Assembly: GCA_032358255.1 (NCBI GenBank) | Contig: JAULBX010008773.1 | Coordinates: 49,847-113,846, forward strand | Source of the DNA: Heterotrichella gracilis | Lineage: Eukaryota; Sar; Xanthophyceae; Tribonematales; Xanthonemataceae | Direction: 5' to 3' | DNA: 64,000 nucleotides | Shown here: piece by piece, positions 6,937 to 63,885 of the stretch | Layout of the letters: every line of letters starts with the position of its first letter | Position numbering within the stretch: position 1 is the first letter of the stretch | Program-made: the position numbers and the translations under genes | The notes under the pieces: generated by a model | Database searches by the model: none | Seen by the model: the letters and a program-made list of their open reading frames with translations, nothing else | Told to the model about the DNA's origin: nothing

Positions 6937-9900
6937 GGCCACCAATGGCTTGTGCTGTGGCTCACCTTCTGGTGCTATACAGCATACCATGCGTCCAGAA
7001 AGCCACTCAGCATCGTCAAAAGCGTCCTCCACGGGGCCGGCAATGCCACTTTGACTGGCGGGATGTGGACACCGCAGAATGCAGCACAGGGGCTATTTGA
7101 CAGAGACAGCCACCTGGCAGCAGCGATGGGTAAGGCAGTAACAATTGAGTTCAATGCATACATGCAGGACAGCTAGATTAGCAGTGTGTGGCAAATTAGC
7201 CTGGGCAGTTTTGCGAAGGGAGATACCAGGACAATGGTCTATTTACTGTGGGATCAGGGAGCATCATGTGGGTGTGTACTTGTAGCAGCAAAGCTTGGGC
7301 CTTGCAGTACATTGGGGCAATGGTACGAAGGATGAGATCCACGTAACCAGGAGTACCCCACATGCAAGCAGTCTCGAAATGTCCAGGTCAAGAGTAATAA
7401 CGATAAAGAGATACACCACATCCATCACATGGAACTTGGTTCCCATACACCGCCCATTCCCGCACCCACACCGGTCCATCCAACCAATCCCACCGCTCCT
7501 GATCTGCCCCTCCAGGTGTCAACACCACGCTGCACGCCACTGCCCCGGGCTGGTACCCCTTCAACACGCCACGTGGCCAGGGCCTGTTGGGAGACCTCGA
7601 CGTGGCCTTCCTGGGGGCCTATGCCCTTGGAATGTTCTGTGCGGGCCACCTGGGCGACCGCCTCAATCTGCGCCTGTTCCTGACCTTTGGGATGGTGATG
7701 AGCGGCGTGTTTGTGGCGCTGTTTGGCATGGGCTTCTTCTGGAACGTCCACGTGGTGTGGTACTTTGTGGCGGTGCAGGTCGCGGGAGGTGCGTGGGGGT
7801 GGGGGTGGGAAGGGAATGGCGGTGGGGGTGGGGGTGGCGGTGGCTGGGAAAGGTTGTGCATGCATCTGAGAGCGTGATGCATGGACATTGGTGGAAGTAC
7901 TTGTGTCTTCAGACATGCAACCACAACCGGAGGGTAATCCCCCAAATTGTAAACCACACATGCATGCCTCACCTGCATCGAGGCTCCGGGAACTCCACCC
8001 CAGGAATTGCCTATGGTTTGTGAGGACTGTGGCAGACAGTTCATGATTCATTAATATGATTCGTTATCTTCTGTCGCAGGTGTGTTCCAGGCCACCGGCT
8101 GGCCCAGCGTGGTATCGGTGATGGCGGAGTGGTACGGCAAGGGCAAGCGGGGGCTGGTCATGGGCCTCTGGAACTCCCATACCTCCGTGGGGAACATCCT
8201 GGGATCCCTGTTCGCGGCGCGCATGCTCTCCCTGGGATGGGGCTGGTCCTTTGTGGTCCCCGCAGCGGTCATGATCACCATGGGGCTGATCATGTTCCTG
8301 TTCCTGGTGGTGGAGCCAAAGCATGTGGGTATATTAGAAAGTATTGCATATGCTTAAATTCATTTGTCCGGGGATGCAATGCCTTGCCTGCTAATTTACT
8401 TGAAAGCTGGCACGCGTATCTGGCTCCAAAGCTGGAATGCACTTACTTCTGCAGATGTTTTGCCCCGGGAGTTGTCCTTCTGGGTTTTTAGCCCCTTGGA
8501 CCAGAAATGCGTTTAATATATGGTATATTGATCTGTGTTGTGTGCCGTCATTCCTGTCTTGCTGTGTGGACCTCGTAAACTGACTGGGAAGTTCACCCCT
8601 TCCCCTAGGTGGGGCTGAAGCCGCCAGACCAGCGAGCAAAGATGTCTGGGGCCAACTAGGGCGCCACCCTAAACCCTTAACACCCTAAACCCTAAACCCT
8701 AAACAGGAATTGACCACTTTCTGTAGGTGGGGCTGAAGCCGCCAGACCAGCGTGTGAAGGCGTCTGGGACCAACTCAGGTGCCACCAGCGGCTACTCCAC
8801 ACCCCAGACAGGGGTGTCGGGGGTCAGCCAGGCCTCCCTGGATGAAGCCATGCGGGTGAGGCACGGGGTCTTGAGGTTGCAGGACTACTCGGGGGGCTAG
8901 CATGCAGAACGATACTCACTGCAACATTGTGCAATGGTTTTGTTGCGTGACAATGCTCCCCCTCCCTTGCAGCTATTCTCAGCTAATATGCAGCAAGAAT
9001 TCTCAGACGTCACTGATGCATGCTCATGGCGCTGCTCTTGCTGCAAACATTGCACAAAACTCCGTTTTTTGCTGATGCGTGCCAATGCTCCTCCTCCCTT
9101 GCAGCTATACGTATTCAATGTGCAGGAAAAATGCTCGGATGCCACTGACGCATGCTCATGGCGCTGCTCTCGCTGCAACATCACACTGCACTTTTCTTTC
9201 TGCTGATGCGTGCCATTCTTCCCCCCCTCGCCTGCAGCTATACGTTGCCCGCCACACGCGGCACCCCCCCGGCCACCCGCACCACCACAAGTCAGCTCAT
9301 GATGCATTCCAATGGCGCCACTCTCACTGCAACAACACGCTGCATTTGTCTGTTTTTGACGCGTGACAATGCTCCCCTCCCCTGCAGCTATATGTAGCCC
9401 GCCACACGCGGCACCCCCCCGGCCACCCGCACCACCACAACATTGTGGGCCTCTCCAGCGCGCTGTTCCTGCAAGACCTGGTCAACCTGGAGCCAACCCG
9501 GGAGACGCTGGACCACGAGCCACACAGGGTACGCCACATGTCACAGCGTTGTGGACGTTGGTCAATTAGGCTAGGGTGTGTAGGGTTTAGGGAACGAAAT
9601 AGGTCTATGGTGTTGAGGGTTTGAGGGAGGAAATGGGGTTCATTACAGCCATGCCTTCATCCACAGCCACGATTCTGCAGGCCACTCGTGGATATTTGGG
9701 GTGGACCAACTATTTGTACTGGTGGCAATCACATATCTCAGAGCTTCTGGTGATTGCCGCCATGACACCAATTGGGGTGGCATATGGTATCTGTGCTTCA
9801 AAGGGGGTGATCATTTGCACCGCAAGGGCCATGCTGGTGTAGCTGGTATTTCATGATGGCAATTGCTGGCGCTCTTACAGATAGGTAGTGAGATAGATAG

Positions 9901-12189
9901 GTATCGTCATGAGGGCATCGCTCTTGTATCATGCGCCCATCTGCAATGCTATTGGGGTTGTGATCTTGCATGCCGCCGCTGTTATCTGACAGTTTCCGGT
10001 GCTGTGCAGGGCGTGTCCTTTGCCGCCGCGTGGGCCATCCCCGGGGTTGCAGTGTTCAGCTTCACGCTGTTCTTCTCCAAGCTGGTGGCATACACCTTCC
10101 TGTACTGGCTGCCATACTACATTCACACCGTCACCATCGGAGGCAGGACGCTCACGCCAGAGGTGGGTCATATGAAAACGCAACATGATTTTGAGCTGTT
10201 CTATATGCGTGGACTTGAACCCACAAGAAGCACAATTCTGTTGCACCATGATTACAGCTGCACACGTGTTCTGGCAGCCCTACTGCATACACACTGTCAC
10301 CAGGGGGGTAGGACACTCACACCAGAGGTGGGTGCAAATGTGTGCAACATTTTGGGTTGTCCTACATGGCAAGGCATGCTGTGACCTGTTTGTGTCATTT
10401 GCCACCCTCACCATGCCGTCCCTCAGCTGGAGGGTTTAGGGTTTTGCAGTCCAATTGCAACCAGCGTGTGCATGTAGCCTCTCGGCATGGCGCAGTGCTA
10501 CCGTATGTACTGCCAGGTGGCGGTAGCTAACATGCATGTATGCAACTTCTGTACAGGAATCCGGCAACCTGTCGTAATACCATGGTGCAGCCCAGCGCAA
10601 CGCACACAAGATGCACCCAATGCAAGCAATCAAGCTGGTGGCATGTGTAGTAACATGCATGTCTGTGTCCTTGCCGCAGGAATCCGGCAACCTGTCCATC
10701 CTCTTTGACCTGGGCGGCGTGCTGGGTGGCGCCCTGGCGGGGCGCCTCTCAGACATCAGCGGGGCCAACGCCATCGTGTCATGCAGCTTTGTGGCGGCCG
10801 CCATCCCCGCGCTGTTCCTGTACCGCACCTACGGACACGTGTCCATGGCGCTCAACGTCGGGCTCATGATGGTCAGCGGATTCTTTGTCAACGGGCCATA
10901 TGCGCTCATCACCACGGCGGTGTCGGCGGACCTGGGCACGCACTCGAGCCTGGCAGGTGGGTGCACATTAGCACTTGAAAGACGGAAAGTTGGATGTTTG
11001 GGTGAGGGTGTAGTGGGAAGAGGGGATATGTGCAAACCACTGCAGTGGTGTTGGCGAATCTTGGCAGGCAAGACAGCCTTGCACTTGGGTGGCGCTGGAT
11101 GGGGAGGGGAGTGCCCTTCTCCTGGGAGTGGTATTGGGGAGAACACTTTCCACATGCAGGCTACAAACACAGCCCTGAACACTCCCGCCACCACCTTGTG
11201 CCGCATAGGTATCGTATGCGCAATCCTTGTCTACCCGCACCAAGGGGTGTACAAGCCGTCAACTCCACACCCATGCCACTGTGCAGGGTTTTAGTCACAG
11301 CAGCCAGAGTAGCCGTCAGTTTTGCAAGTATATATGTAGTATCAAATAATCCTTATTCAATATAAGTAAATAAGGAATTAAATAAAAAAAAACAAAAGAA
11401 TAAGACAGTTGTCCTTATGTTTAAATGATCATTTACTTACTTGATCAAACAAATAAAATGACTTATCACCGCAGGGAACGAGAAGGCGCTGGCCACAGTG
11501 ACTGCCATCATCGATGGCATGGGCTCCCTGGGGGCTGCGCTGGGGCCGCTGCTCACGGGGTACATATCGGTGCTGCCGGGGGGCTTTGACAATGTTTTTG
11601 CAATGCTGTACATCTCGGCTCTGTCGGGGGCGATGCTGCTCAGTGGGCTGGTGGTCAAGGAGGTGCGCTGGGGGACCGATAGCACATGGCTGAAACCCTA
11701 AAGCCTGGACCCTAACCTTAACGCACCCTGCGCTCAATTGCTACAACTGCCGATGTTCCTTGGTATCCCATGTGCTGTCCTTGCCTTGGCTGGTCCGCCA
11801 ACGCACACAGTTGTGCCTGACTTGACATTAGTTGATCTGCCGTGAGACATGCACTGACATGGTATAATGTGGCATGACCCAACCTAATGGCTTGATGTTG
11901 CTGTGTGGGCCAAGGCAATACCATGGCCATGCGTGGTTCGCAATAGCAGTGCCATGCCCATGTGCGCTTCTTGTCTGCGCTGCTCTGGAGAATATACTAT
12001 TATTGATTAGTCCGTCGTATAGGTTCGATTAAATTCATCCACTTTCCCCCCTAATCCTTTGCTCACGTGCAGGCCCGGGAGCTTCTGGCCAAGCGGTCTG
12101 CCCCACCACAAGGGGAGGCAGACGCAACAAGCCCGCTGCTGGCCATTGGCACCGGCAGCGGAAGTAACATCCCCGTGCCGAGGGTATGA
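6937..12189 (+). CDS. SLC37-family sugar-phosphate/phosphate exchanger (MFS)
   Basis: Nine exons join in phase: 6937-7129, 7516-7788, 8080-8324, 8727-8855, 9388-9528, 10010-10162, 10680-10956, 11475-11662 and 12073-12189 (stop TGA). They encode about 571 residues, and a short N-terminal exon is missing from the model. The order of motifs is that of SLC37/glycerol-3-phosphate-permease proteins: YHASRKPLSIVK after TM1, GLFQ-type GVFQATGWPSVV, GLWNSHTSVGNILGSL, then PKHVGL before a Ser/His-rich central loop (PPGHPHHH). Next come YTFLYWLPYYI, FDLGGVLGG, NGPYALITTAVSADLGTH and TAIIDGMGSLGAALGPLL. Such proteins exchange glycerol- or glucose-phosphate for phosphate across endomembranes. The C-terminus has a SPLL motif of the acidic-cluster/dileucine kind. 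Substrate and compartment are not visible in the sequence. Confidence 0.92.
8609..8660 (+). repeat. Echo of SLC37 exon 8727-8855 with in-frame stop
   Basis: This copies the exon's acceptor and first ~30 bases (GTGGGGCTGAAGCCGCC) 118 bp upstream of the real exon. Read in the exon's phase it reaches TAG at 8657-8659. If spliced in, it would truncate the transporter. Confidence 0.88.
8668..8705. repeat. Interstitial telomere-like tract (CCCTAAA)n
   Basis: Several imperfect CCCTAAA units lie exactly between the echo at 8609 and the true exon at 8727. They are plant-type telomere units on the plus strand. Confidence 0.85.
8930..9387 (+). repeat. Tandem intron/exon echo units before SLC37 exon 9388-9528
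   Basis: An intron tail plus exon head (TGACAATGCTCCC... TTGCAGCTAT) recurs from about 8941, 9069 and 9205, before the real acceptor at 9387. The third copy preserves about 50 bases of exon (CCACACGCGGCACCCCCC) and then diverges. Each copy retains a usable AG acceptor. Confidence 0.85.
10270..10332 (+). repeat. Echo of the 3' end of SLC37 exon 10010-10162
   Basis: Repeats the segment encoding YYIHTVTIGGRTLTPE with its GAG|GTGGGT donor, about 160 bp downstream of the original, with substitutions and a small insertion. Confidence 0.85.
10546..10581 (+). repeat. Echo of the 5' end of SLC37 exon 10680-10956
   Basis: Copies the acceptor and start of the exon (CAGGAATCCGGCAACCTGTC) about 130 bp upstream of the real site, then diverges. 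Confidence 0.8.
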
Positions 12190-14052: not shown

Positions 14053-17000
14053 TCACCACAAGTACCGCACGCTCATTTCCTGGACGGTCCCGTCGTCCCG
14101 GATCAACAAAAGGCGCACCCTGGGCACTCGGGGCTCGGCCTTGGCCCAGCGCCAGCCGAAAAGGTCGCCAAAGCGCACGGGCTTGGGCGCGGGCTTGGGC
14201 TTGCGGGCGAAGATGCTGACCGCGGTGGTGGGGGGAGTGCTTGGGAAGCTTGCATCCATTTGGTCATAGTAGTCCATGTAGTCCATGTAATCGATGCAGC
14301 TGTCGGCGGGGGCTTGGCGCTTGGGGGGCAGGGGGCTGGCGGGGGTGATCTCTCCAATGTAGGGAGTGGCGGTCTGCAAGGGCATTTCAGAAGGTATGTT
14401 AGAAGAAAATTAAGAACTTGGAACTCGGAATAGCAATAAAATAAGGAAATGGTATACATGAGAAATATATTAGTATATAACTTTAATTTGAATTCATAGA
14501 ATATTATAGCGCTCCACATCACGTCTGGCGGAAAGGCACCATCCCTATCAAACTTGCCATGTACAAAATTCACAGCATTTGCAGGTACCTTGACTGGCGC
14601 GAGGGCGACCTTTGTCAACTCAGCACCATCCATCTCCGGCTGCCCTGCGCTGGATGCTGCGGCAGCAGCGGTGGGGCTGGAGGGTGCAGACGACGCCACC
14701 AGGTTCACAAAGGTGGGGGTCCTGGGGGCGGCCTTGGATGGGGAGCTGGCGGGGGTGGCTTGGCGCTTGGGTGAGTCGGGGCCGGAGGGTTGGCAGGTGA
14801 TGGGCAGGAGCTGGTTTGGCTGGGGTTGTGCCTGTGAGGTGGGGGGGGTGGGGGTTCAGTGGTGCAGTGGGATTGGATGGTGGCAGCAAGCAGGAACATG
14901 CATGCGTTGCAGAGCATTGGATGGGAAGACTGGCGTCAGGCAACTTGAGCAGCAACCGCATGCATGCAGTTGGTGCATGTATTGAGTTTGTACAAAACTC
15001 TTCCGGAAGACAATGCAATCAGACAGTTCACACTATCAACCCTAAACCTAAACCCCAAATACACCTGTCTGACAGCCAGCATCAGACACAGATGTAAACC
15101 CTACCTCAAACCCTAAACCCTAAACACACCTTTCCGACAACCAGCACGATCGCCAGCACCAGACACAGCACACAGCACACGCTGCCGACGACAACCCCGG
15201 CGATCTGGAGGCCGCTCAGCCCCGCTGGGTGGGGCGCAGGGGCAGCCTGGGGGACGCCACCTGGCAGCAGCAATGCAGCGCCTGCCCTGGTGGTGTTGGC
15301 GCTTGTGGTGGGTGCAGCGGTGTCCCCAACCGCCTGGGTCGCTTGGTGGCGCGTCACGTCGAAGGCCTGCACCACACCGAACGCAAAACCCATGAGTTGC
15401 CTGTGACAGTGCATCACAGCCTGCGCAAAGCACTCAGAACAGCCTAACACAAGTGCACCTCACTAACCACACCCAGCACAAATTTCACAGGGTTTCAACA
15501 TGTATAAGTGATTTAAAAACGACACGATTGAAGCAACTGGCGCACTGAGCCCACATGCAATTTGCCACATCCTAGTGCTCCTTAATGCCTAAACCCTAAA
15601 TCCTTACCTTTCCATTGATGACAAATCCCCAGGGCGCCGCCTCCAGCCCCAGGCCGGCCAGGTCATCCCCAATGGTGGAGTCGGCCGCAGCCGCCGCCAG
15701 CCGCGCCGCCACCTGGGCCCCATCGGTGGTCAAGATGAGGGCGACAAAGGTGGCGTGGGGGGCGGGGGTGGGGGCTGGGGTAGGGGTGGGTGCTTGGAAG
15801 GGGTGGGCAGTGGAGTCCATTGTGGACCGCAGGATGCGGCGGGGCAGGTAGGGGAGGGCGGGCTCCTGCTGGTGCGCCGCCATTGGTGCAGGTGCGGGGG
15901 CGGGCAGGGGAGTGAAGAAGTAGGGATGGGGGTTGGCGCCTAGGAGGCCGTCTTGGGGTGTGGTGAGGATGATGAGGCCGGAGTCCACCCCTGATGCAGA
16001 GGCCAGCAGGGCCTTGACTTGGGCAGAGGCGGCGTGGGCAAGGGGGGCGCTAGGGCCGCCGCCTGGAGGGGAGGGGAGCGGGGGTGGTCAGGTATGGGAA
16101 TGGACAATTGCATAAATTTGAGTGGAAGGGGACGGGGCGATCAGGGAGAGAGGGGGGCATGCACATGGTTTTGGATGCAGCAGGCTACATCCTGCTGCAC
16201 GTGTGCGTGCTTGAATCAGGTTCAGGTCTCAGGCCTGGGATATCACCTGTGCTTGTTAAGGGTTTAGGGTTTTTATGTGCAAACAGGGGGTAAAAAAATG
16301 CTGTGCGCGTGACAATGAATACCGTGGGGGATGCGGTTGCCACCTACCCGTATTTGATGTGTTGCAGCCATATGCACAGTTCAAATGATGAAAAGTTATA
16401 CAACCTTTTTTAACCCTTATAGAGAAAAGGTTACATGACCCCGCTCACCTATTGCCTCCAGAGCCATCTTCACCACTACCAGCTCCCTGGGACTCCGAGC
16501 ATCCCCAGCTTGATCCCTGGCCATGGAGGGGGCAGGGCCAGCGGCAGGAGCGAGGCTAGGGTATCCAGACACCCCCTCCCTGCTGTAGGCGCTGTAGCCA
16601 CGTAGAAGCTGCTGGGGGTAGGCACTGGAGGGGACAGGGGCGGAGGGTGCTGGAGAGGGGGCGGCAGCCTCAGTGGCTTGAGTAGTTTGAGCCTCGGGGG
16701 CGGGTGCAGGGGCGGGGTAGGGTGTGTCTTCCATTGCATCGTAGCCCTCATCATTGCTTGGATCCTCAGATGATGGGGCCGGGGTTGGGGTAGGGGCCGG
16801 GGCAGGGGTGGGGGGGCACAGCACGGCATCTCCATCGCTGGATGCGCAGTGCACCGCCTTGTTGTATATGTGGTGCGCGTGTGGCCGCATGTCGCACACC
16901 GACACGCCCCATGCTGCGGTTGTCAGGGTGAGGAAGGAGCCCACGCCTTTGCAGGGGATGAAACCACGCACCCCGGCACCCATGGTCATGTCCTGTGAAT

Positions 17001-28226: not shown

Positions 28227-28845
28227 TAGTGATATAGTTATATTGTAACTAAATATTCTCTTATTTATAAGCATAGCTACGTAAGCTGCCTTAGGCAAGG
28301 GCCTTTGCCGTTGTTTTCTTCTTAACCAGTAGAGAAGGCTATCTGATGTGGCCATGTGCAGGAGATGGTGAGGCAGCAATGCTAGTAGGGCAAGCGAAGG
28401 ATCTGGTGCATGACAACCTTGTATACCCTGTAGGATACGGCACACGGCAAAACGGAAAATTAAGCAGATTAATAGGTGTCCCATTCCATTCTAGATTAAC
28501 TCGTGCAAGCTTAGCATACAAGCCTTTGCCAAAGGCTTTCGAGTAGAGCAATAATCGTCATGATTTCCATTCCCTGTAAACCCTCATAATATACCAAATA
28601 TATTTTCACTTACGAATCTGAAGACATGTACTTCGACCTATAGTTTCTAAGTTCCTGAGCAATACTCAGTTTTTCGTGATTGTTGTGCTGCACGAAGTAT
28701 TGACAAACGGTTAGTGGCACACGACGGGCTGCCATCGCCAATGTGCATGCAATGGCATGCAAGTATGCATGCATAAAGGTTGTTACCATGTGCATGGAGT
28801 CATCCTGCGTCTGTAAACTACCTTAGAAAAGTTGCCAGTGACAGA
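28227..28845. other. Intergenic between LRR and BTB genes
   Basis: No exon is supported. It would contain the LRR 3' UTR and the BTB promoter. AT-rich patches at 28240-28270 and 28590-28620. Confidence 0.45.
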
Positions 28846-42477: not shown

Positions 42478-42586
42478 GCAGAAGTAGACCTTGGCAGCAT
42501 TTTGGAGAGTGAACTGGAGCAGACAATAGGCGATATGGTTGCAGTTCAATCTGGACAAGCTAAAGGAGCTGGCTAACCAAAACTGA
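42478..42586 (+). repeat. Echo of the RF1 C-terminus in the 3' flank
   Basis: The last ~100 coding bases (GACCTTGGCAGCATTTTGGA.. GGAGCTGGCTAACCAAAACTGA) recur after the stop codon with indels. This shows that echoes also occur outside introns. Confidence 0.93.
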
Positions 42587-51159: not shown

Positions 51160-54100
51160 TCATGCAGTGGGCCGCAGCTTGCTGTTGCCCCAACCCCGAG
51201 GGTTGTCGTCCTTCCAGTCATCCCAAGCACGCGCTTTGTGCACCTTCCCCTCGTCATCATCGTCGGATGATCCCCCCTTGCCCGCCTGGGCAGCTGCCGC
51301 TGCAGCCTCCTCCTGCTGCCGCCGCTGCATATCTGCAACTTCCTGATCAGCCTGCAGGGTGGGAACATTTATGGAGCAGGACTGTTTGTATTCATGGACT
51401 TTGCCGTGTAAATAGTGTGGGATCAATGTGGGATCAATACTCATGTGAATGTGATTGGCAGGCATCCCATGTGCATGTCTGCAGCCTCCTGCTCGGCTTG
51501 CATGTTGGCTTCAAGGTGGTTGCGCAATATTCAATGGCATCAAAGTAGCTACTCTCCATTAGAGTGGTGAAGTAATCCTATATTTTATAATCTGAATGCG
51601 TTTAATTACAGTTCCAGGAAACCTGATTGCAGCCTCATGGTGAGCCTGTGTGGCACTGTGACCACGTGGATGAGCTCATAGGCATTCATGCAGATCAACG
51701 TGCATGGAAAGTGCACGCTGCCCTGCCGGTGCAGTGCAGATGCTGTCGTTGATGCGCAGGCACCAAAGCAGTATGGGCATAGGGTGAAAACACGTACTGG
51801 AACAAATTCCCGAAAAAAACAGTATGATGCAGGCATCATGATTATACACATGCGCATACTCACAAATTCAGCCAGGGACACCATCGGCAGGTTGTGCGAG
51901 GGCCGGAAAACACCATCCGCAGCATGCTGCCGCTGGGATTGAAGCTGCCCCCCAGGTAGTGCGCAGGCCGGAAAACGCAAACTTACCCATCACAACCGGC
52001 ACTATGGCACAGGCACATTCCCAAACCTACGGCCTACCCTACCCTACCCTCCACTCCCACCCACCCCAGCCAACCCATACACATGCGCCTGCAATAATCA
52101 TGACCATGCACATGCGCATGCGCATACTCACAAACTCCGCCAGGGAAACGGTCGGCAGGTTGTGCGAGGGCCGGAAAACACCATCCGCAGCTCGCTGTCG
52201 CTGGGACTGCAGCTGCCCGGCAGCAGCCAGTAGCTTGGGCATGAGCTCCGGTTGGGCGGGGCCCGCAGGTCTCCCCCGCTGGTGCTCGGGCAGCGCGGCA
52301 ATGTGGCGCAGCATGGCCACCTCTTGCTGCAGCATGTGGCGCTGGTCCACGGCCTGGGATGTGGGGGTGACAGTGTGAGAATGGTAAAATGACGACAAAA
52401 GCTCGTTAAATCCGGACGGGCAGTTCTCAAACCCGGGGGTAACGCACGGCCAGTATGCTATGTGGTGCAGCATGGTGCATCCTCACACAGCACGTTGCAC
52501 TGCATGTACACGCAAGCAAGCACATGCATTGACCGCCCACAATGTTGATGCATGCAAGCGCAGGCACGCTATCTCACGGACACACTACCCTATGGCAAAC
52601 CTCAAAACCCTCAAGACCCTAGACCCTACACCGCTACCTTGAATGCTGCCAGGTCAACGCTGAGCAGCAGCACCTCGACGCAAACCCTACATGCTCAAAC
52701 CTAAAACCCTAAACGCCGAACCCTCCATCCTACCTTAAAAGCCACCAGTCAATGCTGAGCAGCAGCACCTGAGCGCCAACCCTAGATGCTCAACCCTAAA
52801 TCCCTAAACGCTGAAGCCTAAACCCTACCTTGATTGCGGCCAGGTCAATGCTGAGCAGCAGCACCTCCCGTTCCTGCTCCTCATCTCCCCCCCCTTGCTC
52901 CTCATCTTCCTCGCCAGGGGGCGCCCTGCGGTGCTGCTCCATGATCTGCTGCAACCGCTGCTTGATCGCACGCTCCCTGCAGCAGCCGATTAGTTCATTA
53001 CCCTTCGTTAATTATAGACTGCATGAATTCATGTGCTGCAGGTGCTGCTTGATCGCATACTCCATGCACCTATTTGATTAGCTGTATGATTACTGTAGGC
53101 GATTACAGAACAGCTCTGCATAATCGCATGTTCCATGCAATCACCGATAACTCAGTGCGCCGCAGACTACAGCATACCACAGGAATCAGTAACCACTACA
53201 TGGTGATGCTGACGAAACGACAGTGGTCACCATCGTAATACGTGCAGACAAGAATGGGTTAACAACACACTCAAAGGAAAGAAATGATGAATGATGATGT
53301 CCCGAATGATTAGGATAATGCCACACAGCCCTTCTCTATTCATTTTAATCAACACGGTTTAATAAACGGGCATGATGGCAAACCTGATGAGTATAACAAC
53401 GCCACACAGCATTTCACCATTACCTCTTGAACCGAGCAATCTTTTGGTCCCTGGTGGCTGTCGCGTCCAGCTTTGCCCCTTGCTCCTGACCCTCAAGCGC
53501 AGCCTTGGCCTCACCCCTGAGCAACCCGTGGCACTCACAGGTGTTCAAGAACTGGGAATAGTGCTGCAGCGCCTGTGGCAAGGTGGAACAAATTTATAAC
53601 AGGTGTAATGTTTAATAACGATTCGATAACATATTTACATTTATTGTGGGATCGATAAGTGGTTCAAACAGTGCCAGGAAAGCGCTGCTTGGCGCCGCAT
53701 GTGCAAGATTGACTGCTAATCTGGCTGTATTGCTGGGATGCATGTAACTAAGCAACATATTTATGAATGAATGAATAACAATCGAGATATAAATGCTGCC
53801 ACAAGGCGGTGCGGACTGGGAATAGTGCTGCAGCGCCCGCAACGGAACACCACGACGGGGTTTATTAGACACTTCTAGATACATGCACTCCAGTTGCTGT
53901 TACATAGGCAGATGACTGCATTCCAGAAAGGGTAAGTTACAAACAAAGGGCCTTCACATATCCCAGCCACAAAAGACCATCTTGGTCAAGGTGGCCAAAT
54001 TTAGTCTATAGAGTCGGCACATGGGCTCCATTCCCATGCTGATCATAGACATTTACCTAGAATATGAAAAGGTCCAGTTTTTAGTGATTAAACAGGTTGA

Positions 54101-55072
54101 AAGCTTGGCTCCACCCACACGCCGTGGCGGCATGTATGTAAGTCGAGGCAGGTTGTGCACATCGAAAAGGCACCTGGTGCACACAAAAAAAAATTACTGT
54201 CGGAGTGCCTTCAACTATTCATGCTACCTAAAACCCTAAACCCTACACTGCTTTATCGTGTCGAGCTTTTGTGCGCGTCGTGATGGCTCTTTCATGCTGG
54301 TCCTGGCCTCCAGGTTGGCAGCTGTAGTAGGGTGTGAGCAGGTACTCGAGGCTGCTGGTGACAATATCCTCTCCTTCTGGATATGCATGTCACTCACCAA
54401 CTACCCTGTCGGGATGCTTCCCATAACCCTAAACCCTACACTGGGGTTTACCTTGTCGAGCTTTTGTGCGCGCTGCGAGGGCTCCTTGAGGCTAGTCCTA
54501 GCTTCTAGGTTGGCTTTATAGTAGGGTATGAGCAGGTACTTGAGGCTGCTGGTGGCGATATCCTCCGCCTCTTCATTGGAGCTGAAGAGGCCAAGGCTGT
54601 CAACCAGAGTGGCCGCCCGACTGAGGTATGCGATGGCCTGGTCACATTGCACCTGGACCCAACATAAGGGTTTATTACATATGCGGTGGCTGTAGAGGTG
54701 TGTGGCTCGGGTACCTTTTGTGAAACCCTCCCCCCAGAGCCATAACGACTTGGGCCCATGCTTGCATATGCATGCATATAGGCGCCACCCGTGCACACAG
54801 AAGGTTTCACATACCTGGAACGCTGAGGAAGAGGAAGGAGACGCTTCAGCCTGTTCATGCACCGCACTGGCTCGGTCAAAGAGCACACCCAGGGGCAGGT
54901 CCTGCGGCAAGAATAGGGTAGGGAAGGTGTAGGTGGTGGGGGGCCAAGAATGTGCAGCCCTGCTTTGCAATAGCTGTCTCCTTCTCGTCACCATACTCTT
55001 TGACATAATACGGATATAGGAGTAATAAAGCAAACTCACTAGAAACTCCGGTTGGTCTTCTCCCTCAGCCAT
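51160..55072 (-). CDS. TAP46: PP2A regulatory subunit TAP46/TAP42 (alpha4)
   Basis: Seven exons in phase: 55072-55040, 54901-54815, 54652-54452, 53572-53424, 52976-52829, 52353-52132 and 51351-51160, giving 343 residues. The N-terminus MAEGEDQPEFL is followed by LPLGVLFDRASAVHEQA. The helical repeat part continues with SSLKYLLIPYYKANLEART and FLNTCECHGLL, then DQKIARFKR, EVLLLSIDLAAIK and VAMLRHI. The conserved C-terminus is DQEVADMQRRQ, an acidic SSDDDDEG, then RAWDDWKDDNPRGWGN (321-336), a signature of the family. TAP46 binds PP2A-type catalytic subunits downstream of TOR and protects them from degradation. Exon echoes occur in four introns. Confidence 0.95.
51840..51990 (-). repeat. Echo of TAP46 exon 52132-52353
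   Basis: The part encoding FRPSHNLP.VSLAEF with its donor (CATACTCACAAA(T/C)TC on the plus strand) is repeated about 285 bp downstream in transcription direction. The flanking ACATGCGCATACTCAC context is copied too. A second fragment of the same exon (GGCCGGAAAACG) follows at about 51965. Confidence 0.92.
52634..52790 (-). repeat. Two echoes of the 3' end of TAP46 exon 52829-52976
   Basis: Copies at 52634-52690 and 52735-52790 repeat CAATGCTGAGCAGCAGCACC and the donor context ACCTTGAATG/ACCTTAAAAG. Each is followed by AAACCCTA..CCCTAAACGC, giving a ~100-bp unit in which exon piece and telomere-like tract alternate. Confidence 0.95.
53644..53745 (-). mobile_element. Dispersed repeat, copy B (in TAP46 intron, inverted)
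   Basis: Reverse complement of the element at 30890-30988, sharing CCAGATTAGCAGTCA, CTTGCACATGCGGCGCC and CCTGGCACTGTTTGAACC. It lies between TAP46 exons 3 and 4. Confidence 0.85.
53812..53850 (-). repeat. Echo of the 5' end of TAP46 exon 53424-53572
   Basis: ACTGGGAATAGTGCTGCAGC is identical to the exon start on the plus strand (53551 onward), about 265 bp upstream in transcription direction. It lies next to the dispersed repeat. Confidence 0.85.
54247..54400 (-). repeat. Echo of the 3' end of TAP46 exon 54452-54652
   Basis: About 130 bases (GTCGAGCTTTTGTGCGCG.. GAGCAGGTACT(C/T)GAGGCTGC) are repeated with about 15-20% change and a decayed donor. Both copies are bordered by CCCTAAACCCTACACTG, so the junction is shared. 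Confidence 0.95.
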
Positions 55073-55623: not shown

Positions 55624-58600
55624 ATGGGGTCCAACCAGGGAACCACGGGGCTCCTCAAGCAGTTTGGGCTGTCGAGAAACCCCTTCACGGTGTGGCGATG
55701 TGCAACCTGCCAACTTGCTATCGCCACTTCTATATGCATGCATTGGGAAGCATTGCATGCATATGCGCTCTGCACAGACACGTGGCTGCCCTTGGCACAC
55801 CAGCTGGCACTCTGAATCGTTTAACAACCCTTGAATATTTGGTTCTGTAGGATCGTACGGCCGAGAAGGCCACTTTGGACGCCACCTCGCTCTATGTGCA
55901 CTCGGATCTGCAGGGCTTCAGCCCGTCAGGTACGCACAGACAGCACTTTGAACAGCACACCAGCTGGAACATAAGTTGCCCTATGTTGGTTTAGAGCTAA
56001 CCAGTACTCGTGGTGCAGAAACGACGTATGTGTTCTTTGGGCGACGTGGGTCTGGCAAGACAACGATACGCATGCAGGTACGCAGCAGCGTCCACCCCCG
56101 TCTGGAAAGGCAAAAAATAGACAAGGAACGCAGCTTACATTACATCAATTTTGCAGATGCACTTTCAACAGTTTCGGGACCCCATCAGACGACAGGCAAA
56201 CGACATCACCCATATGCATGCATTGTCATTTTTGCCAATTGGAGCCATTTGCGCCACCCCCCTGCAGATGCAGAAGGCGTACCAGGACTACAACGATGCA
56301 GCCAGGAGCTCGGGCAAGTCCAAGGGCCACTTCATGATCGACCTGTCGCGCCCCTCTCACCTCACAGCCTGCCTAAAAAACTTCCAAGACGCCATCCAGT
56401 GCTCGAAGGACAACTGGGACGCAGCCTTCAGTACGTGCTGATTGTATTGTTTTAAGACAGTTGCATCCCGCCACCCACCACGTGCACTGCATATTGCTGC
56501 CCGCTCGCAGTCCTGGGGTTTCCGCCTGAACCCTTGCCTAGGGTTTGCCTCGTTCGTTCCCAGCTTTTACAACCCGCCAGGCTGTACGATGTAGGGAATA
56601 GGGTTTGGAAGTGCCACACTACAGAAATGCATCCATTCGTTGCTAGCTTGCCTAAACCCTTGGTCAGGGCTTCGCGAGTTGCACAAACCCAGCACTTGGG
56701 TTTTCACTCGTCTGACCAAAACCCTTGTTCCCTGCAGCTGAGTCCTGGACCAGCGCTGACCTCGTGGACTGCATCCTGTCATATGCTGCCACCAAGCTAC
56801 TGGACGAGGTGCGCCCTAGGGTTTAGGGTTTAGGGTTTGCAACCACACCTTGGCCTGGCACTTGAAAATCCCTCAGCTGCATTTCCAGCTCTGCTCGCTC
56901 ACTCAACACAACCGAGGCTGACCTTAAATGCACTCAAAACTCTTAATCGCATTGAAACCCTTGAACCGTGCACCCACAACCCCAGGTCACCGACCAGTCG
57001 CTCCCGTCCTCCAAGCAAACCCTGGACCGCCTGCGGGCCGACCCCCGCATGGCCAAGCAGATGCTGCTCCTGGCGCACCTGTACGCAAAAACAGACACTG
57101 CGTCGCTGGTGGCGCTGCGGCGCGCGCTGCTGCCCCCCGCATACTCGCCGGCGCAGGTGGCGGTGGGGGTGGCGCTGGTGGGGTCGGGGGTGGCAGGTGG
57201 GTGGTGGGTGATGGGGTGGTGGGGGTTGTACGAATTTGCATGTGCATGTGCATGTGCGCTGATGGGTGATGGGGGGATGTGCATTGTGCACGTGCACCTT
57301 CATATGCACGTGCCCTTGGGGTTTGATATGTTAAGGCAGACACTGCATCGCTGGTTTGCACGCTGCAGCCCCCAGCATACATGCCGATGCAGGTGGCGGT
57401 GGGGTGTATGTGGTGGGTGGTAGGGTGTGGAGTCATAGTGGGGCATATGTATGTGCATGTGGGTGGGTGGGTATTGCCCAGCACCTCATCCACTCCCCAT
57501 CACCGCCACTCCCCGTCTTAATGCCTGCTCCTTCGCCCCGCACAACACCAGCACACATCCATACCCACATGCACCCACGTGCACCCTTGCACCACCCATG
57601 CCATGCATTCTCCCCTCCACCCCCACGCACCCCATCACCACCCATTCGCCACCCCTCAGGTGCCCTGGGTGCCTCCAAGGACCCTGCTGTTGCCTCCGCC
57701 CTCGCCCGTCCCTTTGAGAGGGCGTGGGACCAGGTGGATGGGATTGCACCCGCCCTCACCTCCCACCCGCGCATCACAGCCACAGCCGCCGCCGCAGCAG
57801 CAGCAGGTGCGTGCGTGGGGTGTGTGGGTGGCACGGGTGGGATGCCTTGTGAGATGCTGGTGGTTATTCAGGATGGAGAATGCAATGTTGCGAGTTTCCC
57901 AATGTGGGCGGCATTGTACGTCGTCTGCACCGATTGTTTGACCGGACATTGGCGGGGGGTGCTACTGTAGCTGAGCATGGGTTAACTCCATGTAAGTGTG
58001 TCTACTGCGTGGGGAACAAGCACGTATGCATAGTGGCTAAGGTCAGGCCATTGCTAGTAGCACACCCCCATTTCATACATGTCAATTTGACGTCTGCAGG
58101 GGGGGTGTATTACTACATGAGCAGGCGGCGGCGGCGGGGTCTGGAGCGCGCTGTTGCGCTGACACGTGGCATCCGTGTGGTGAAGCAGCTGCCTGCGGGG
58201 GACATCGCTGACCTGCTGGGGAGCCTGTTCAGTGCAAAGGTGGGGGTGACGTTTTGGGCTGTTGTCAAAATGAATTCCAGGAAATTGCAAGGATGACTGT
58301 CGTGCAGTGCACAGGTTGGTTGGTTGAGGGTGCTGGTGTAGGCTGCTTGAGAATTTGAAAGGATGATAAGAACCGTTCACAAAAAACGATGGCAGACCAA
58401 TGAATGACCTCCCATGTGCACGCCCTCGCACCCACCCAACCCCGCAGGAGGCGGTAACACCATCCCCCTCCCTTGACACACCAATACCCCCTTGCACACC
58501 CACCACCCACACCACCCCCGCAGGACGGCGTGGACACCATCCGCAGCATGGCAGTGGGTGTGAGTGCGCACCAGAAGCTGGAGCTACTGGCACAGCTGGT

Positions 58601-59785
58601 GCACTACCTGGGCTATGAGTCGGTGGCCATCTTCGGGGACTGCTTCGATGAGGTGGGGACTTTTTCTCTGAAATATATGTGTTTTCTAAAGCTATGTGGT
58701 GGCAATCTTTGTGGACTGCTTCGATGTGGGGAGTGAGCTAGCTTGGGATGCTTGCCTATGAAACTGCTCCCTAAACATTTCACTATGAGCAGGGCTCACA
58801 GGGGTTTGAATACGAGGTGAAATGGCATGGGGGTCCCATTGGAAGAACTAGGGTTTGTCAGGGTTTCCTCCCCTTTCCTGCAGGTTGGCTTGTTGGACCC
58901 CGTGCAGTACCCTGGCGCCATCAAGACCTTTGCAAAAGAGACCTGCCGAAACGACCTGCTTAACTTTGGGCGCCTGCACTTTTTCTTCCCAGACTCTAGG
59001 CTGGCGCTGGACCTCAACACAGACAAAACCCTGAAGGTGCGGGAGAAATCTAGGCTAGGGTTACGTGTGGGCCACTGCCACGTATTCTGGGCATCAGCTG
59101 GAGGCGCTGGCGGGGAGAAAACGACAAGGAGAAAGGAAACCCTAAATATTAGCTGCACCTTCCTCCAAATCCCAATGTACAACATAATTGAAGAGGAGTC
59201 TTATTTATCTCACCATCACTCGCAGGAGGCCCGCTTCGACCGCCACTTTGTGCGCGACCTCACCTGGTCCCGGCACCAGCTGGAGGCACTGGCTGAGAGG
59301 CGGTTCCGGGCCGCCCAACAGCAGGCGCTGCAGCGGCTGGCGCCCGACAGCCCCGCCAGCGCAGCGGTGGCGCACTACAACTTCTCAGACCTCTTCAACA
59401 TGGTAAACCCTTGACCCTAAACCTTAAGCGTGGTGCACGTGATGCTTGGCATTCAGGGTGCAGGGTTTGTCATACCTCTGCAGGGTAGTACGGGGGTAGG
59501 GTTTTGGGTTTAGGGAATAGGGTTTATGGTTCAGCGGCTTGCACCCTACATTTGCCAATTACTGATGAAACTGAGCAGAAGTCACCCACTCAACCCCCCT
59601 TCCATTTCGCCCCCCAGGTCAAGGTTGAGGACTTCAGCAGCTACCTGAGCAAGGTGTCCACCCCGCGCGAGCTGATGATGATGATGACGGAGATGATGGC
59701 GCGCATAGAGGCGCACCCCGACGGGGCGCTGACCGCCCAGGACATGGAGATTGCGGTGACCAAGGCGCTGGAGCAGGCGGTGTAG
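55624..59785 (+). CDS. P-loop NTPase, AAA/STAND-like, function unknown
   Basis: Twelve exons in phase: 55624-55689, 55851-55929, 56019-56077, 56268-56430, 56738-56808, 56986-57196, 57660-57806, 58100-58239, 58524-58652, 58884-59036, 59226-59402 and 59618-59785, giving 520 residues. FGRRGSGKTT (55-64) is a Walker A motif on its own short exon. SVAIFGDCFDEV (345-356) has the shape of a Walker B (hydrophobic strand, then D..DE). FGRLHFFFPDSRLALD, then DLTWSRHQLEALAERRF, recalls the sensor and winged-helix entry of ORC/CDC6- and STAND-type ATPases. A segment with VALVGSGVAG is followed by Ala runs. The C-terminal MMMMTEMMARIEA segment is Met-rich. I do not recognise a named orthologue; ATP-dependent switch or scaffold work is an inference. 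Confidence 0.8.
56815..56838. repeat. Interstitial telomere-like tract (TTTAGGG)n
   Basis: Three TTTAGGG units begin seven bases after the exon boundary at 56808, immediately inside the intron. Confidence 0.88.
57335..57410 (+). repeat. Echo of P-loop exon 56986-57196
   Basis: AAGGCAGACACTGCATCGCTGG.. GATGCAGGTGGCGGTGG repeats the middle of the exon (AAAACAGACACTGCGTCGC.. GCGCAGGTGGCGGTGG) with an internal deletion, about 245 bp downstream. Confidence 0.85.
58694..58735 (+). repeat. Echo of the Walker B end of exon 58524-58652
   Basis: GTGGCAATCTTTGTGGACTG.. TTCGATGTGGGGA mirrors GTGGCCATCTTCGGGGACTG.. TTCGATGAGGTGGGGA, about 70 bp after the exon. It is a partial copy of the motif-bearing segment. 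Confidence 0.85.
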
Positions 59786-60847: not shown

Positions 60848-61744
60848 TTAGGCCCCAATCGCCTGCTCAGCATTGCGGAAAAAGCAGTTGTACTCCTTAA
60901 TGTTCCCATTATTCACCTGGCACTCTTCAAACTCAAACTTCCTCGTTGAAAACCAGGTCTTTATCTGGGCGCAGGTGAAAGCACCCGTGTATAAAAGCTC
61001 CCCAGGGCTATCAAGGTCCTGACACTCTACTTGTATCCTACGCACCCTATCTATATAGTGCTCCATACTCTCCACGACATGCAGGTCAAACCCCTGGGCG
61101 TCTATCTTGACAAACTCGACAGGGATGCGAAACCTCATCAGCACAGCGGCAAGTGGAAACGTAAAGACTTTGGCCGCGTGCTCTTGGCCCTGTATGCATA
61201 GAACCTCTATGGAGTCATTACCAAAGCTCTTCCTCCACTTGGCTTCCAGCCCTACCTGGTTCCGTTTCAAAAAGGAGTCGCAACCGGGGGCTGACGCAAA
61301 GTTGAAGTCTGAAAAGCCAAGCTGGGGTGCCACAGCGGCATTTAGCACGACGTAGTTCGGTCGAAACCGCTTAGCCAGCTCGGCGTGCAGCACTGGGTTT
61401 GGCTCAAAACCCAGTACAAAGACGCCGGGCTCGTCCAGTAGCTTCTCAAACTCGCTCTCTATGTTCACCCCGACATCCATCAGCACTCGCTTGGTCCCAG
61501 GTGGCAGGATGAACATCTGCTCCTCGTCCAGCTTGAGCCCAGAAGCAGCGAAATACGCGCTCGCCCAATGGTGGGCAGCCACCGCATGGTGTTGGATAGC
61601 AGCCTCGCTCTCACTGTCGGCATTGCAGCTGTTGCATACTTGGACGAATACCCAGACCAGCACCACTGACCTCAACCATGCTAGCCACGCCAATCCTGGC
61701 AATCGATGACAACGACACCGTTGTGAGGTAGTAGTAGCATCCAT
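60848..61744 (-). CDS. FkbM-family methyltransferase, single exon, membrane-anchored or secreted
   Basis: An uninterrupted 298-codon ORF with ATG at 61744 and TAA at 60850-60848. An N-terminal hydrophobic helix (RSVVLVWVFVQVC, about 25-38) is a signal peptide or anchor, pointing to the secretory pathway. The SAM-dependent fold is visible in VLMDVGVNIESEF (about 87-99, motif I region), VFVLGFEPNP (acidic residue after strand 2, 108-117), VVLNAAVAP and VEFVKIDAQGFDLHVVE (209-225, FkbM hallmark K-x-D-x-Q/E-G). FkbM enzymes O-methylate sugars and other small molecules; the acceptor is not predictable. It is the only intact gene here without introns, echoes or telomere-like tracts. Confidence 0.88.
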   Translation of the reverse strand: MDATTTSQRCRCHRLPGLAWLAWLRSVVLVWVFVQVCNSCNADSESEAAIQHHAVAAHHWASAYFAASGLKLDEEQMFILPPGTKRVLMDVGVNIESEFEKLLDEPGVFVLGFEPNPVLHAELAKRFRPNYVVLNAAVAPQLGFSDFNFASAPGCDSFLKRNQVGLEAKWRKSFGNDSIEVLCIQGQEHAAKVFTFPLAAVLMRFRIPVEFVKIDAQGFDLHVVESMEHYIDRVRRIQVECQDLDSPGELLYTGAFTCAQIKTWFSTRKFEFEECQVNNGNIKEYNCFFRNAEQAIGA

Positions 61745-63372
61745 CGTGTGGTACTTGACACTTCAACGACAGCAATCCGTTCAAGCTGAGGAAAGAAGTA
61801 GAAAGGGAAGCGTATGTGTGATACTGCCTGGCGATTCAACTTGCGGAACGATATGGTGCGGACCACGTGCACGGGGGAATTGTCTGGCAAGGGAAGGGGG
61901 TAGACCTTCGACCTTGAAGGGAGGTGACAGGCAGGCAAAAGAGAAGCTCTTTTCTAGGTGACTTTGCTTAAAAGGACGCGGAATCGGGTTAGGTTGAAGA
62001 TCTATGGATGCATGCATGCACTAAGCATACAGAGCTTTTATGCGTACCTGGAAACTCCCCGCAATTCTACACAGATGTGACTCCGGCTGTGCCGACGCGT
62101 CCAAACACATTGTATCTAGTGAAATAAAAACAGTGTTGTATCACCTTGGCTCGGCATTGGTGGCGCTGGCTAGGACCCATGTACTTACCGATGTAGGTAG
62201 TGCACGGCATTGCACCAGTCTGGGGCGGCATTTCACTCTTGATTGTAAAATACACACCGCTTGGTGCTTGGATAAAGATACTAGAACAGATAGCTAACGG
62301 TTCGAACCTAGAGGCGTTTAGCGACGATGGTACTCCAGAGTTGACAGTTGGGCACAGCGGGTGGTGGGCAGCTAGATGTCGTTCGTGGCAGCTGCTGGAT
62401 CGCTCTTCAGGAGGCAACTACAGTACGTACACGGTCATGCAACCTAAATTGCCGCCACAGCGCTCCTATGCATGCATGTCCTCTTCATATGCAAGCATGT
62501 GTCTTTGCATATGCATGCATTGCCTCTTCTGTATGCATGCATGTTCACGTGCACCTCCACGACCACCTGACAGTGCCTGTGGTCATGCTGAACGTATGGT
62601 GTGTGTTTCAGGCGGCGGTGCGCGGGTGAACAAGTCATGGTGAGTACAGCACTGTTGACCGAGGCGCAACATCATGACGCATCACCCCAGGCGCACACCT
62701 TGTAGAGTCATATTGATGTTAGTTATTTAATCAATTTGTATGTGCATTTCAACAATACATGCAATTCAATAGTCAGTCTTGCATATGCGGCGCAAAGCAG
62801 TGCTGTCCTGGCACTGTTTTTATACCACCTATTGATCCCATGCGACTACATGTCCTGCATGGATCCAGTCAGACAGCCACATCCGTGGCACGCTTGCACG
62901 TTGCGCCAACCCTCCTCTGCCTTGGCACGCCTCGGCACGAAGCGCATTTATTATATTTTCTATATCAAAATTTTTCGTTGAACTATGTGGAATCTGTGAT
63001 GCAATCGTCCATTGTACATTTGCACGCCATGCATGCGATCCCGTCTCATTCGCCGACTCAGGTTTGCGTGTGATGTGGCACATGTATCACAATGAATTTA
63101 CATCACAGTAATCACAGTGGTGTGATATTGGTCAAAACCCTTGGGATTACCCACAATCTGTTGTTTGCGTCACCACAGTTTGTTTTTGTTCCTGATTTAA
63201 GCCTGGTCGGCACAGGGTTTGCAGCCACATTTCATAAAACAGCGCACACTGGCAGTCCCAAAGGTTTATGAGTCAGCATGGTCACCCCAATACATGCGCC
63301 ACCCAGAGTAATTAATATGAACAATAGACTTGTCTTCCTTTTTTGTCCACCCCACCTAATTACGCCCCACAG
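61745..63372. other. Region upstream of FkbM and OXA1-like genes; contains unplaced 5' exons
   Basis: The FkbM promoter and the N-terminal exon(s) of the insertase should lie here. A possible small exon at about 62611-62639 (CAG before, GTGAGT after) cannot be joined with confidence. Four ATGCATGC-type palindromes cluster at 62465-62545. Confidence 0.4.
62770..62846 (+). mobile_element. Dispersed repeat, copy C
   Basis: Shares AGTCAGTCTTGCA(T/C)ATGCGGCGC, CCTGGCACTGTTT and TATTGATCCCA(T/C)GCGACT with copy A; shorter and more diverged. Confidence 0.8.
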
Positions 63373-63685
63373 GCCGCCCGCCACTTTTCCCTCTTTGGTA
63401 ACACCCCACCTCCGCCATCGGCCCCAGACCCCACCACAACCACCAGCGCCACCCACCCACCCACCCCCTGGGACACCCCCCCACTCCCCACCACCACCAC
63501 AGACACAGCCACAGATGCAGCACCCTTCTTTGATGCCGCAGCCACATCCACATCCACATCCACAGCCACAGCCACAGCTGAGGAGGGGGGATTTGGTCCC
63601 GTAGGGCTTGCCATGCAGCTCGTAGATGGATTCCATGGCGCTACTGGCATGCCGTGGTGGGCTACCTTATCGCTCTTCAGCATAG
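63373..63685 (+). CDS. OXA1/YidC/ALB3-type membrane insertase, one exon, partial
   Basis: Acceptor CAG at 63370-63372 and donor GTGAGG at 63686 bound an exon with one clear frame. It encodes AARHFSLFGNTPPPPSA, a long Thr/Pro/Ala low-complexity linker (STSTSTATATA, from CCACAT/CCACAG repeats), then GFGPVGLAMQLVDGFH and TGMPWWATLSLFSIG. The HxxTGxPWW segment at the start of the first conserved helix is typical of the family (OXA1, COX18, ALB3). Such proteins insert hydrophobic proteins into mitochondrial inner or thylakoid membranes. The N-terminus is unplaced and the rest lies beyond the window. COX18/OXA1 versus ALB3 cannot be settled from this exon. Confidence 0.72.
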
Positions 63686-63811
63686 GTGAGGCAGTAAAAC
63701 CCTTTGCCAAACCCTGGCACGCATGTAGAAACCCTTGCCGGACCCTAGGAGTCCACATAATCTCCTTAAAAACCCTAGCATTTATGTGGAAACCTTTCGA
63801 TTACACCCTAG

Positions 63812-63885
63812 CATGCATCTGGTAGATGGCTTGCATGGTGCCACTGGCCTGCCGTGGTGGGCAACATTATCGCTCCTCAGCGTAG
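63812..63885 (+). repeat. Echo of the 3' end of the insertase exon, same length and frame
   Basis: Seventy-three bases copy 63613-63685 at an offset of exactly 200 bp, keeping frame and a TAG|GTGGGG donor. A CCCTAG precedes it and could serve as an acceptor. The copy reads LVDGLHGATGLPWWATLSLLSVG, with only conservative changes, so an alternative exon is possible. Confidence 0.92.

Follow-up and report, generated by a model that had tools for sequence, protein, structure and literature searches.

Decayed copies of exon edges in the introns of a 64-kb stretch of Heterotrichella gracilis: local duplication, telomere-like DNA and possible growth of introns

How introns lengthen is an old question, often answered by transposons or by scars too short for reading. 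It is raised again by a window of 64,000 nucleotides from the xanthophycean alga Heterotrichella gracilis (GenBank assembly GCA_032358255.1, contig JAULBX010008773.1, positions 49,847 to 113,846 of the forward strand; positions below are those of this window). At about a quarter of the exon ends in this window, a degenerate copy of the exon end lies a little way inside the adjoining intron, and it usually includes the splice site. These copies, called echoes here, are local direct duplications at exon edges, they change near neutrally, and telomere-like DNA is concentrated between copy and original. What process leaves them, and why at the edges of exons?

The window is eukaryotic and intron-rich, and thirteen genes or gene parts were used; a weak fourteenth gene model (4591-5086) was omitted from the edge set. 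The models come from a gene finder (codon and splice-site) trained on the window itself and were trimmed by hand, and repeats played no part in them. Pfam or PDB identified an MFS transporter, an LRR protein, a BTB-domain protein, MRT4 (ribosomal L10 family), RF1, a Galactosyl_T protein, a TAP42-like protein and an FkbM methyltransferase; we take the MFS transporter to be SLC37, and the Galactosyl_T gene is presumably GT31. The match of the rhodanese-like gene lies under the Pfam cut-off, the names of the Pro-rich membrane protein, the P-loop gene and the OXA1-like start were given by eye or taken from a preliminary description of this DNA, and one gene is without identity. Rfam (gathering scores) and ARAGORN gave no match in the window. 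Searches for relatives of the loci returned five archaeal relatives for MRT4 (contig search; not used) and none for RF1 (viral-contig search), and no related algal locus was obtained. In total, 144 presumed splice edges were tested, 142 of which have GT or AG; positions 16800 and 44846 are not true splice sites, and neither has an echo.

A comparison of the window with itself (E<=1e-3) gave 66 direct and 3 inverted pairs, and 63 of the 66 direct pairs lie no more than 1 kb apart. A more sensitive local repeat search with tiles, which spanned positions 1-63000 only, returned 77 direct and 63 inverted matches, the latter being 35 within one minisatellite, 12 palindromes and 16 weak matches (E of at least 1.8e-4), while two Markov-shuffled controls gave one match each. 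Neither search showed whole-exon, inverted or dispersed copies to be prominent. Transposons or introners are not indicated, as only one direct and two inverted pairs within the window are separated by more than 2 kb (E<=1e-3). Instead, the duplications are direct, adjacent and of local sequence, as in the repair of staggered breaks by non-homologous end joining. When exon ends were compared with their own flanking intron, a significant copy was found at 41 of the 144 edges, 30 of them strong (score of at least 36), and 25 of the 30 strong alignments come within 3 nt of the splice edge. As controls, the same 144 exon ends were set against introns belonging to distant edges, with 0, 0 and 1 matches; queries from exon interiors matched in 4 of 48 cases, 3 of them strongly.

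The preliminary description had claimed more than 35 copies, local, direct and on exon edges, at 70-250 bp from the original. These claims are borne out: 41 exon-echo pairs, including one at a stop codon, could be aligned, and the spacing over 28 nearest pairs is 76-268 bp (median 174), with a weak pair at 15130 spaced by 65 bp. Its statement that nearly every multi-exon gene is affected fits 10 of the 11 multi-exon models together with the partial OXA1-like gene. The exception is the BTB-domain gene (28871-31217, six introns), which has no splice-edge echo despite echo-rich genes on either side; a lectin named in that description could not be identified. Echo-bearing introns are longer (n=23, median 517 bp) than the others (n=44, 242 bp), as expected if echoes add length, although longer introns also give more room for matches.

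The anatomy of the copies was measured on a set of 31 loci, also used for telomere coverage, the breakpoint simulation and a same-intron control. This set excludes the edge-test matches at 459, 10956, 26748, 35307, 34758, 38306, 46200, 52353, 57660, 59226 and 59402 (of which 459 and 59226 reach a score of 36) as well as the stop-codon copy, and includes 15130, which the edge test did not recover; spacing and intron halves were assessed on 28 of the 31 loci (without 10680, 15130 and 35717). The duplicated segment has a median length of 71 bp, its exonic and intronic parts having medians of 54 and 11 bp, and echo lengths range from 23 to 152 bp. The copies are separated by 5-241 intronic bases (median 59), which in tandem-type units belong to the repeat itself. 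The intron half of the unit is significantly alignable in 14 of the 28 nearest pairs, which indicates segmental duplications, many of them tandem; the tandem arrays have periods of 95-108 bp. At 22508, 41496 and 24679 the copy ends within about 10 nt past the splice site though the exon part is 94-96% identical. At 22508, 17359 and 57156 an alignment of the intron halves requires an offset of about 30-75 nt, which looks like the result of a later insertion beside the exon. GT or AG is retained in most copies and lost at 54452, 58652, 21988 and 53572. An upstream exon end abutting the acceptor of the next exon, as intron gain would leave it, is not what we observe: the aligned echoes lie near their parent exon, with more intron after them. 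The claim that the copies nearest the exon are best conserved holds for three of seven arrays, namely 39685 (91, 89 and 74% identity from near to far), 1376 (97 and 90%) and, nearly, GT31 (91, 88, 86, 81, 84 and 82%). It does not hold for 39146 (89 and 89%), 21159 (88 and 91%), 40452 (89, 91 and 85%) and 52829 (84% near, 92% far).

Could such repeats have been made by the assembly, through unresolved haplotypes or a gap-filling step that repeats contig ends? Errors of this kind would also be local and direct. Nevertheless, the 41 pairs are 86.5% identical on average and contain 21 gap events as well as several stops, and this divergence argues against assembly error. Indeed, the arrays hold up to six mutually different copies, the window is free of N, and, with the minisatellite set aside, exact matches in pairs separated by 2 kb or less reach 73 nt at the longest (in the GT31 array), the next being 54 nt. 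We therefore regard an artefact as extremely unlikely.

The echoes look dead and change near neutrally, and the exons stay constrained. Changes polarised in the seven multi-copy arrays fall at first, second and third codon positions as 16/16/27 in the echo lineages and 0/0/9 in the exon lineages, after removal of non-homologous tails and of the weakest GT31 copy (untrimmed, 36/25/35 and 3/3/9, respectively). Unpolarised differences between exon and echo are distributed as 69/59/181 over the 41 pairs and as 55/45/138 when one pair is taken for each of 30 edges. Functional alternative exons had been considered as the principal explanation because of these silent-rich differences and of the echoes that the gene finder called exons, and were rejected in that role after the polarised test. 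A related proposal, that gene conversion or repeated re-copying keeps the exon parts of the echoes similar, or that echoes serve as alternative exons, would account for exon parts 94-97% identical beside diverged intron parts (22508, 1376, 24679 and 41496), for the differences at 42211, which are confined to third positions (0/0/8), and for the several exon calls. We consider it very unlikely, given that the polarised echo changes are spread across codon positions, that the spacing is out of frame (a multiple of three in 9 of 28 pairs), and that the RF1 and MRT4 models without echoes align, the former along its length, to a solved peptide chain release factor 1 and to a solved MRT4 homologue, with no gap at the joints concerned. 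The stops and gaps likewise speak against protein constraint on the copies, the unpolarised excess at third positions remaining. This excess is larger than we can explain, and part of it may be silent exon change between successive copy births. Tandem exon duplication and mutually exclusive exons also repeat exon sequence in the adjoining intron; the copies described here differ in being partial, one-edged and near-neutral.

Are the exon edges truly preferred? If units with the observed spacing are placed at random, 26.5% fall on a single splice edge and 58.7% lie outside exons. Among the loci, border and non-border cases were counted by hand, mainly from the tile search, which gave seven loci of non-exonic local repeats and 28 border loci; 28 of 35 compares with 31% under uniform placement (P ~3e-9), and within genes 28 of 32 are border loci (P 3e-5). 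Alternative splits of 26/8, 24/10 and 32/7 were also tried. A copy without a constrained partner could fade sooner than one with an exon for a partner. In one decay simulation non-exonic copies were 0.70-0.73 times as detectable as border copies, and in a second 0.92 times, both on the assumption that intron and echo mutate at the same rate. Pure ascertainment was rejected as an explanation, these simulated values of 0.70-0.92 being too high to yield 28 against 7. The bias would be nearly gone if non-exonic copies were only 0.25 times as detectable (P 0.035), and for 24 to 10, the least favourable of the splits tried, P is 0.088 already at 0.33. As only 14 of the 28 intron halves are alignable, introns may turn over faster than simulated.

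These results support local duplication as a recurrent process, with a bias towards exon-intron borders among the products that survive; purifying selection against exon-internal duplication likely also contributes to this bias. The preliminary description had offered either a local duplication or repair mechanism with a border bias or selection removing copies elsewhere; this interpretation is partly supported, with selection as a contributor. The main rival is that ordinary short tandem duplication, by slippage or patch repair, occurs uniformly throughout the genome, and that the bias comes from selection against copies in exons, faster decay of copies without a constrained partner, and ascertainment. 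Among insertions in plants, short tandem duplications are a common class, and the 14 of 28 units that align through their intron half, as well as the arrays with 95-108 bp periods, fit this explanation. In contrast, uniform placement with simulated decay predicts fewer border loci than we count, and it predicts equal shares of exon and intron per match: simulated uniform breakpoints gave 52% intronic bases per match, against 14% observed (p 1.4e-6). It also leaves the telomere-like DNA between copies unexplained. The equal intron and echo mutation rates of the simulations may be wrong. Uniform duplication is therefore, in our view, a possible but rather doubtful explanation.

The DNA between the copies provides a further clue, unmentioned in the preliminary description. 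When the intron heptamers with 8 or more occurrences are ranked by over-representation, 12 of the top 13 are rotations of TTTAGGG/CCCTAAA, which we take to be the plant-type telomere repeat. Such rotations cover 12.7% of the bases between echo and exon (331/2615), 4.1% of other intron (846/20863) and 1.2% outside annotated genes. An exact heptamer stands between the flanking copies at 18 of the 31 loci, as in an interstitial telomere insertion, compared with a mean of 7.9 and a maximum of 14 in 500 matched draws. Within the same introns, telomere coverage is 18% between the copies and 6% beyond the echo (Wilcoxon p 0.0036). An exact run of at least 7 nt lies within 14 nt of the inner boundary of the echo in 14 of 41 copies (several of them from one edge), against 4.3-4.8% in two nulls. 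Clear telomere-filled examples are 8587-8786, 33906-34264 and 63612-63897. In the first, the 8727 copies of the MFS gene enclose a 37-nt array of CCCTAAA type (8669-8705, forward strand), with 32 of 37 bases in exact heptamers and 0 of 60 beyond the echo; in the last, the OXA1-like copies enclose a 114-nt degenerate telomere-like segment (63698-63811, forward strand), with 28 of 114 bases in exact heptamers and 0 of 102 beyond. In the LRR gene, a 15-nt telomere-like segment, CTAAACCCTACAAAC (24633-24647, forward strand), separates the two 89-bp copies of 24679 and is in register with exon AACC at the joint.

At some joints the exon bases run directly into the repeat, as ACC into CTAAACCC at 8668 and AACC into CTAAACCC at 24632; at 40191, AACC is followed in register by CTAA (seen by eye). 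In the introns of the window, repeats in G-strand orientation tend to lie downstream of donors, and those in C-strand orientation upstream of acceptors. A tract with its G strand outward is present at 13 of 32 echo edges (38306 included here) and at 16 of the 112 other edges (p 0.002), and 24 edges have only an outward G tract while 11 have only the opposite one (binomial p 0.041); alternatively, the strand bias around donors and acceptors could reflect splicing signals. In another rival explanation, telomere-like tracts already present in introns, as branch-point or G-run splicing signals or as old insertions, are the substrate: microhomology with exon ACC/GGT would let a polymerase slip or a broken end re-anneal in the exon, so that the exon edge is copied again. 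The three in-register joints and the association of outward tracts with echo edges are consistent with it, and purely intronic slips would merely resemble longer tracts. Many echoes are without a tract, however, and the in-register cases are few, so that we find this explanation unlikely.

We propose instead, giving the proposal an even chance, that introns have repeatedly been lengthened by error-prone repair of staggered breaks near exons, with telomere-type filler, array growth and neutral decay. Two nicks some 20-150 bp apart, one in the exon and one usually just beyond the splice site, would open a staggered break, and filling in the overhangs would double the segment between the nicks, so that both ends carry the exon edge and usually the splice site. 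Telomere-type repeats, TTTAGGG strand outward, would often be added to one end, that bearing the exon, before joining, by telomerase or by copying of existing telomere-like DNA, sometimes primed by in-register exon bases ACC or AACC. Joining would then give exon edge, filler and exon edge, with the splice site nearest the exon body still in use. The new direct repeats would permit slippage or unequal exchange, and hence arrays of up to seven, and the outer copy would decay neutrally while the exon retains its protein. Duplications internal to exons would be purged and those internal to introns would fade faster, both adding to the border bias. The nicks, the telomerase and the order of events are what we infer here.

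Several observations weigh against this repair model. Exon parts are longer than intron parts (the medians of 54 and 11 given above), which random nick positions do not predict. As to the filler, 13 of the 31 between-segments lack an exact telomere heptamer, a sign test of between against beyond gives 14 to 6 with 11 ties (p 0.12), and 24679 has more telomere bases beyond the echo (22/60) than between the copies (10/37) with blast boundaries. In-register joints were flagged by script at two edges only (8727 and 24679), with one more by eye (40300), and the outward orientation of the telomere strand, at p 1.2e-6 by occurrences, is only p 0.10 by clusters. In tandem-type units the telomere-like DNA lies inside the duplicated unit and could thus be substrate rather than product. 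Finally, the 138 third-position differences exceed the approximately 94 expected (worked by hand) for a dead copy beside a constrained exon, and 27 of the 59 echo-lineage changes are at third positions, a mild excess. In the simulations, the border bias is nevertheless stronger than simple ascertainment would make it. A more speculative and quite unlikely version would liken exons to broken chromosome ends that have healed: where introns break near exons, the ends would be capped with outward telomere repeats, the capped end would anneal into the exon of the sister copy and copy its edge again, introns would largely consist of healing scars and echoes, and telomerase-dependent repair would set intron length genome-wide.

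Contrary to the preliminary description, which could match the pattern to no described process, both staggered-break repeats and telomere insertion with flanking duplication have been described, in Daphnia introns and in mammals, respectively. In the parts of the reports drawn on here, the new introns of Daphnia pulex contain direct repeats, including the terminal bases of the adjacent exon, which are read as scars of staggered breaks and may lengthen introns (PMC4202315); these exon-end repeats measure 4-12 bp and are found mostly in new introns (PMC4202315; reviewed in PMC3443670). The echoes resemble them as direct repeats within introns that match the adjacent exon end. They differ in their length of 23-152 bp, in usually crossing the splice site and in the telomere-like DNA often lying between the copies. 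In mammals, as far as the cited portions go, interstitial telomere repeats were inserted at breaks; the target was directly duplicated at some loci, and bases at the break were in register with the repeat. Duplication was a minority outcome (6/130 rodent and 4/25 primate loci), and insertion in introns was compatible with chance (PMC2246262, PMC7215372). Telomere repeats between direct target duplications are common to both cases, whereas here what stands out is the duplicated exon edge, and most of the motif is in introns. Intron gain by tandem genomic duplication, in the part of the review consulted, likewise duplicates a segment that includes a splice site (PMC3443670), but there a new intron arises within an exon and here an existing intron is lengthened. 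Judged by titles and the openings of abstracts, searches of the open-licence literature yielded no exon-edge echoes, no telomere-filled introns and no splice-site duplications of 23-152 bp at such density. For the green alga Haematococcus, the parts of its genome paper drawn on here give AACCCT as the telomere motif and describe no comparable pattern. Each step of the proposed mechanism has a precedent, in Daphnia introns or in mammalian interstitial telomeres. What is seen here would then be a variant of repair-driven intron growth, to which the telomere link is the most testable addition. Such scars are not only long and frequent, at 41 of 144 edges, but also datable by comparison with a constrained exon partner, which permits break positions, filler, joints and decay to be measured within one genome; if the telomere filler is real, telomere repair is tied to intron growth.

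The individual echoes are as follows, gene by gene. On the forward strand, the donor edge 1376 of the rhodanese-like gene (original 1339-1415) has an echo at 1443-1519, with 97% identity over 38 exon nt, and a second at 1563-1603. In the MFS (SLC37-like) gene, also forward, the tile search and pair alignment place echoes of acceptor edge 8727 (original 8706-8786) at 8587-8668 and of donor edge 10162 (10101-10207) at 10267-10368, and the echo of acceptor edge 10680 (10647-10696) at 10523-10573 has only 17 exon nt and an edge-test score of 34. The Pro-rich membrane protein, on the reverse strand, has a weak echo of donor edge 15130 (original 15109-15146) at 15044-15081, found by the tile search and absent from the edge-test matches, and one of acceptor edge 17359 (17316-17368) at 17493-17545 (tile search, pair alignment).

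Further along the forward strand, two tandem echoes with a 95-bp period (21215-21407; tile search, pair alignment) follow donor edge 21159 of the gene without identity (original 21120-21209). Acceptor edge 21988 (21982-22027) is repeated at 21792-21837, its AG lost in the copy, and donor edge 22508 (22441-22510) at 22694-22763, with 96% identity and with part of the copy called an exon by the gene finder. The LRR gene, forward, has an echo of acceptor edge 24679 (24648-24736) at 24544-24632, with an exon part 95% identical and 3 of 3 changes silent, and one of acceptor edge 25774 (25676-25814) at 25517-25652 (tile search, pair alignment). In MRT4, on the reverse strand, the copy near donor edge 33514 (original 33543-33630) lies at 33336-33423, is gapped, and its alignment ends 29 nt before the edge. 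Acceptor edge 33987 (33906-34042) has its echo at 34130-34264 with a telomere-like segment (34043-34129) between, donor edge 34617 (34611-34680) at 34438-34507 (tile search, pair alignment), and donor edge 35717 (35721-35753) at 35627-35666, again with telomere-like DNA between.

RF1, on the forward strand, has two echoes of acceptor edge 39146 (original to 39189) at 38876-39076 and a weak third at 38648-38707; three tandem echoes of donor edge 39685 (original from 39632) with telomere-like linkers at 39739-39990; an echo of acceptor edge 40300 (40272-40366) at 40097-40191, in which a Trp codon has become a stop; and three echoes of donor edge 40452 (original from 40382) at 40490-40832 (tile search). 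Donor edge 41496 (41416-41502) is copied at 41610-41693 (tile search, pair alignment) and acceptor edge 42211 (42203-42264) at 41946-42007, with 8 exon-part differences, all at third positions, and the end of the last exon with its stop codon (42283-42436), which is not a splice edge, at 42473-42630. GT31, on the reverse strand, has a weak echo of donor edge 45324 (45332-45370) at 45235-45273 (edge-test score 33) and a six-echo array of acceptor edge 47515 (47451-47522) at 47675-48646, partly expanded as a unit of 393-401 bp.

The TAP42-like gene, on the reverse strand, repeats donor edge 52136 (52117-52218) at 51849-51950 (tile search, pair alignment), donor edge 52829 (52829-52867) as two tandem echoes with telomere-like linkers at 52596-52771, and acceptor edge 52976 (52944-52981) at 53031-53068 (tile search, edge test). 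It also repeats acceptor edge 53572 (53551-53573) as a short, identical echo of 23 nt that has lost the AG (53815-53837), and donor edge 54452 (54414-54565) at 54221-54371, where GT has become AT. In the P-loop gene, on the forward strand, donor edges 57156 (57092-57193) and 58652 (58622-58653) have echoes at 57337-57430 and 58698-58729, respectively (tile search, pair alignment for both). In the OXA1-like gene, also forward, the echo of donor edge 63685 (63612-63697) at 63812-63897 was found by self-comparison and the edge test, as it lies beyond the range of the tile search.

Other features of the window are a minisatellite in an intron of the rhodanese-like gene (1584-2871, about 9.5 copies of a 133-bp unit), 132-bp tandem copies in an intron of the MFS gene (8941-9440) and an imperfect palindrome of 129 nt at 4342-4470, 77.5% self-complementary. 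Perfect short tandem repeats, apparently young, occur at 28834-28887 (25-bp unit across the BTB start codon) and at 41770-41821 (26-bp unit, twice). The FkbM-type methyltransferase gene (60848-61762) is intronless, a single open frame amid intron-rich genes.

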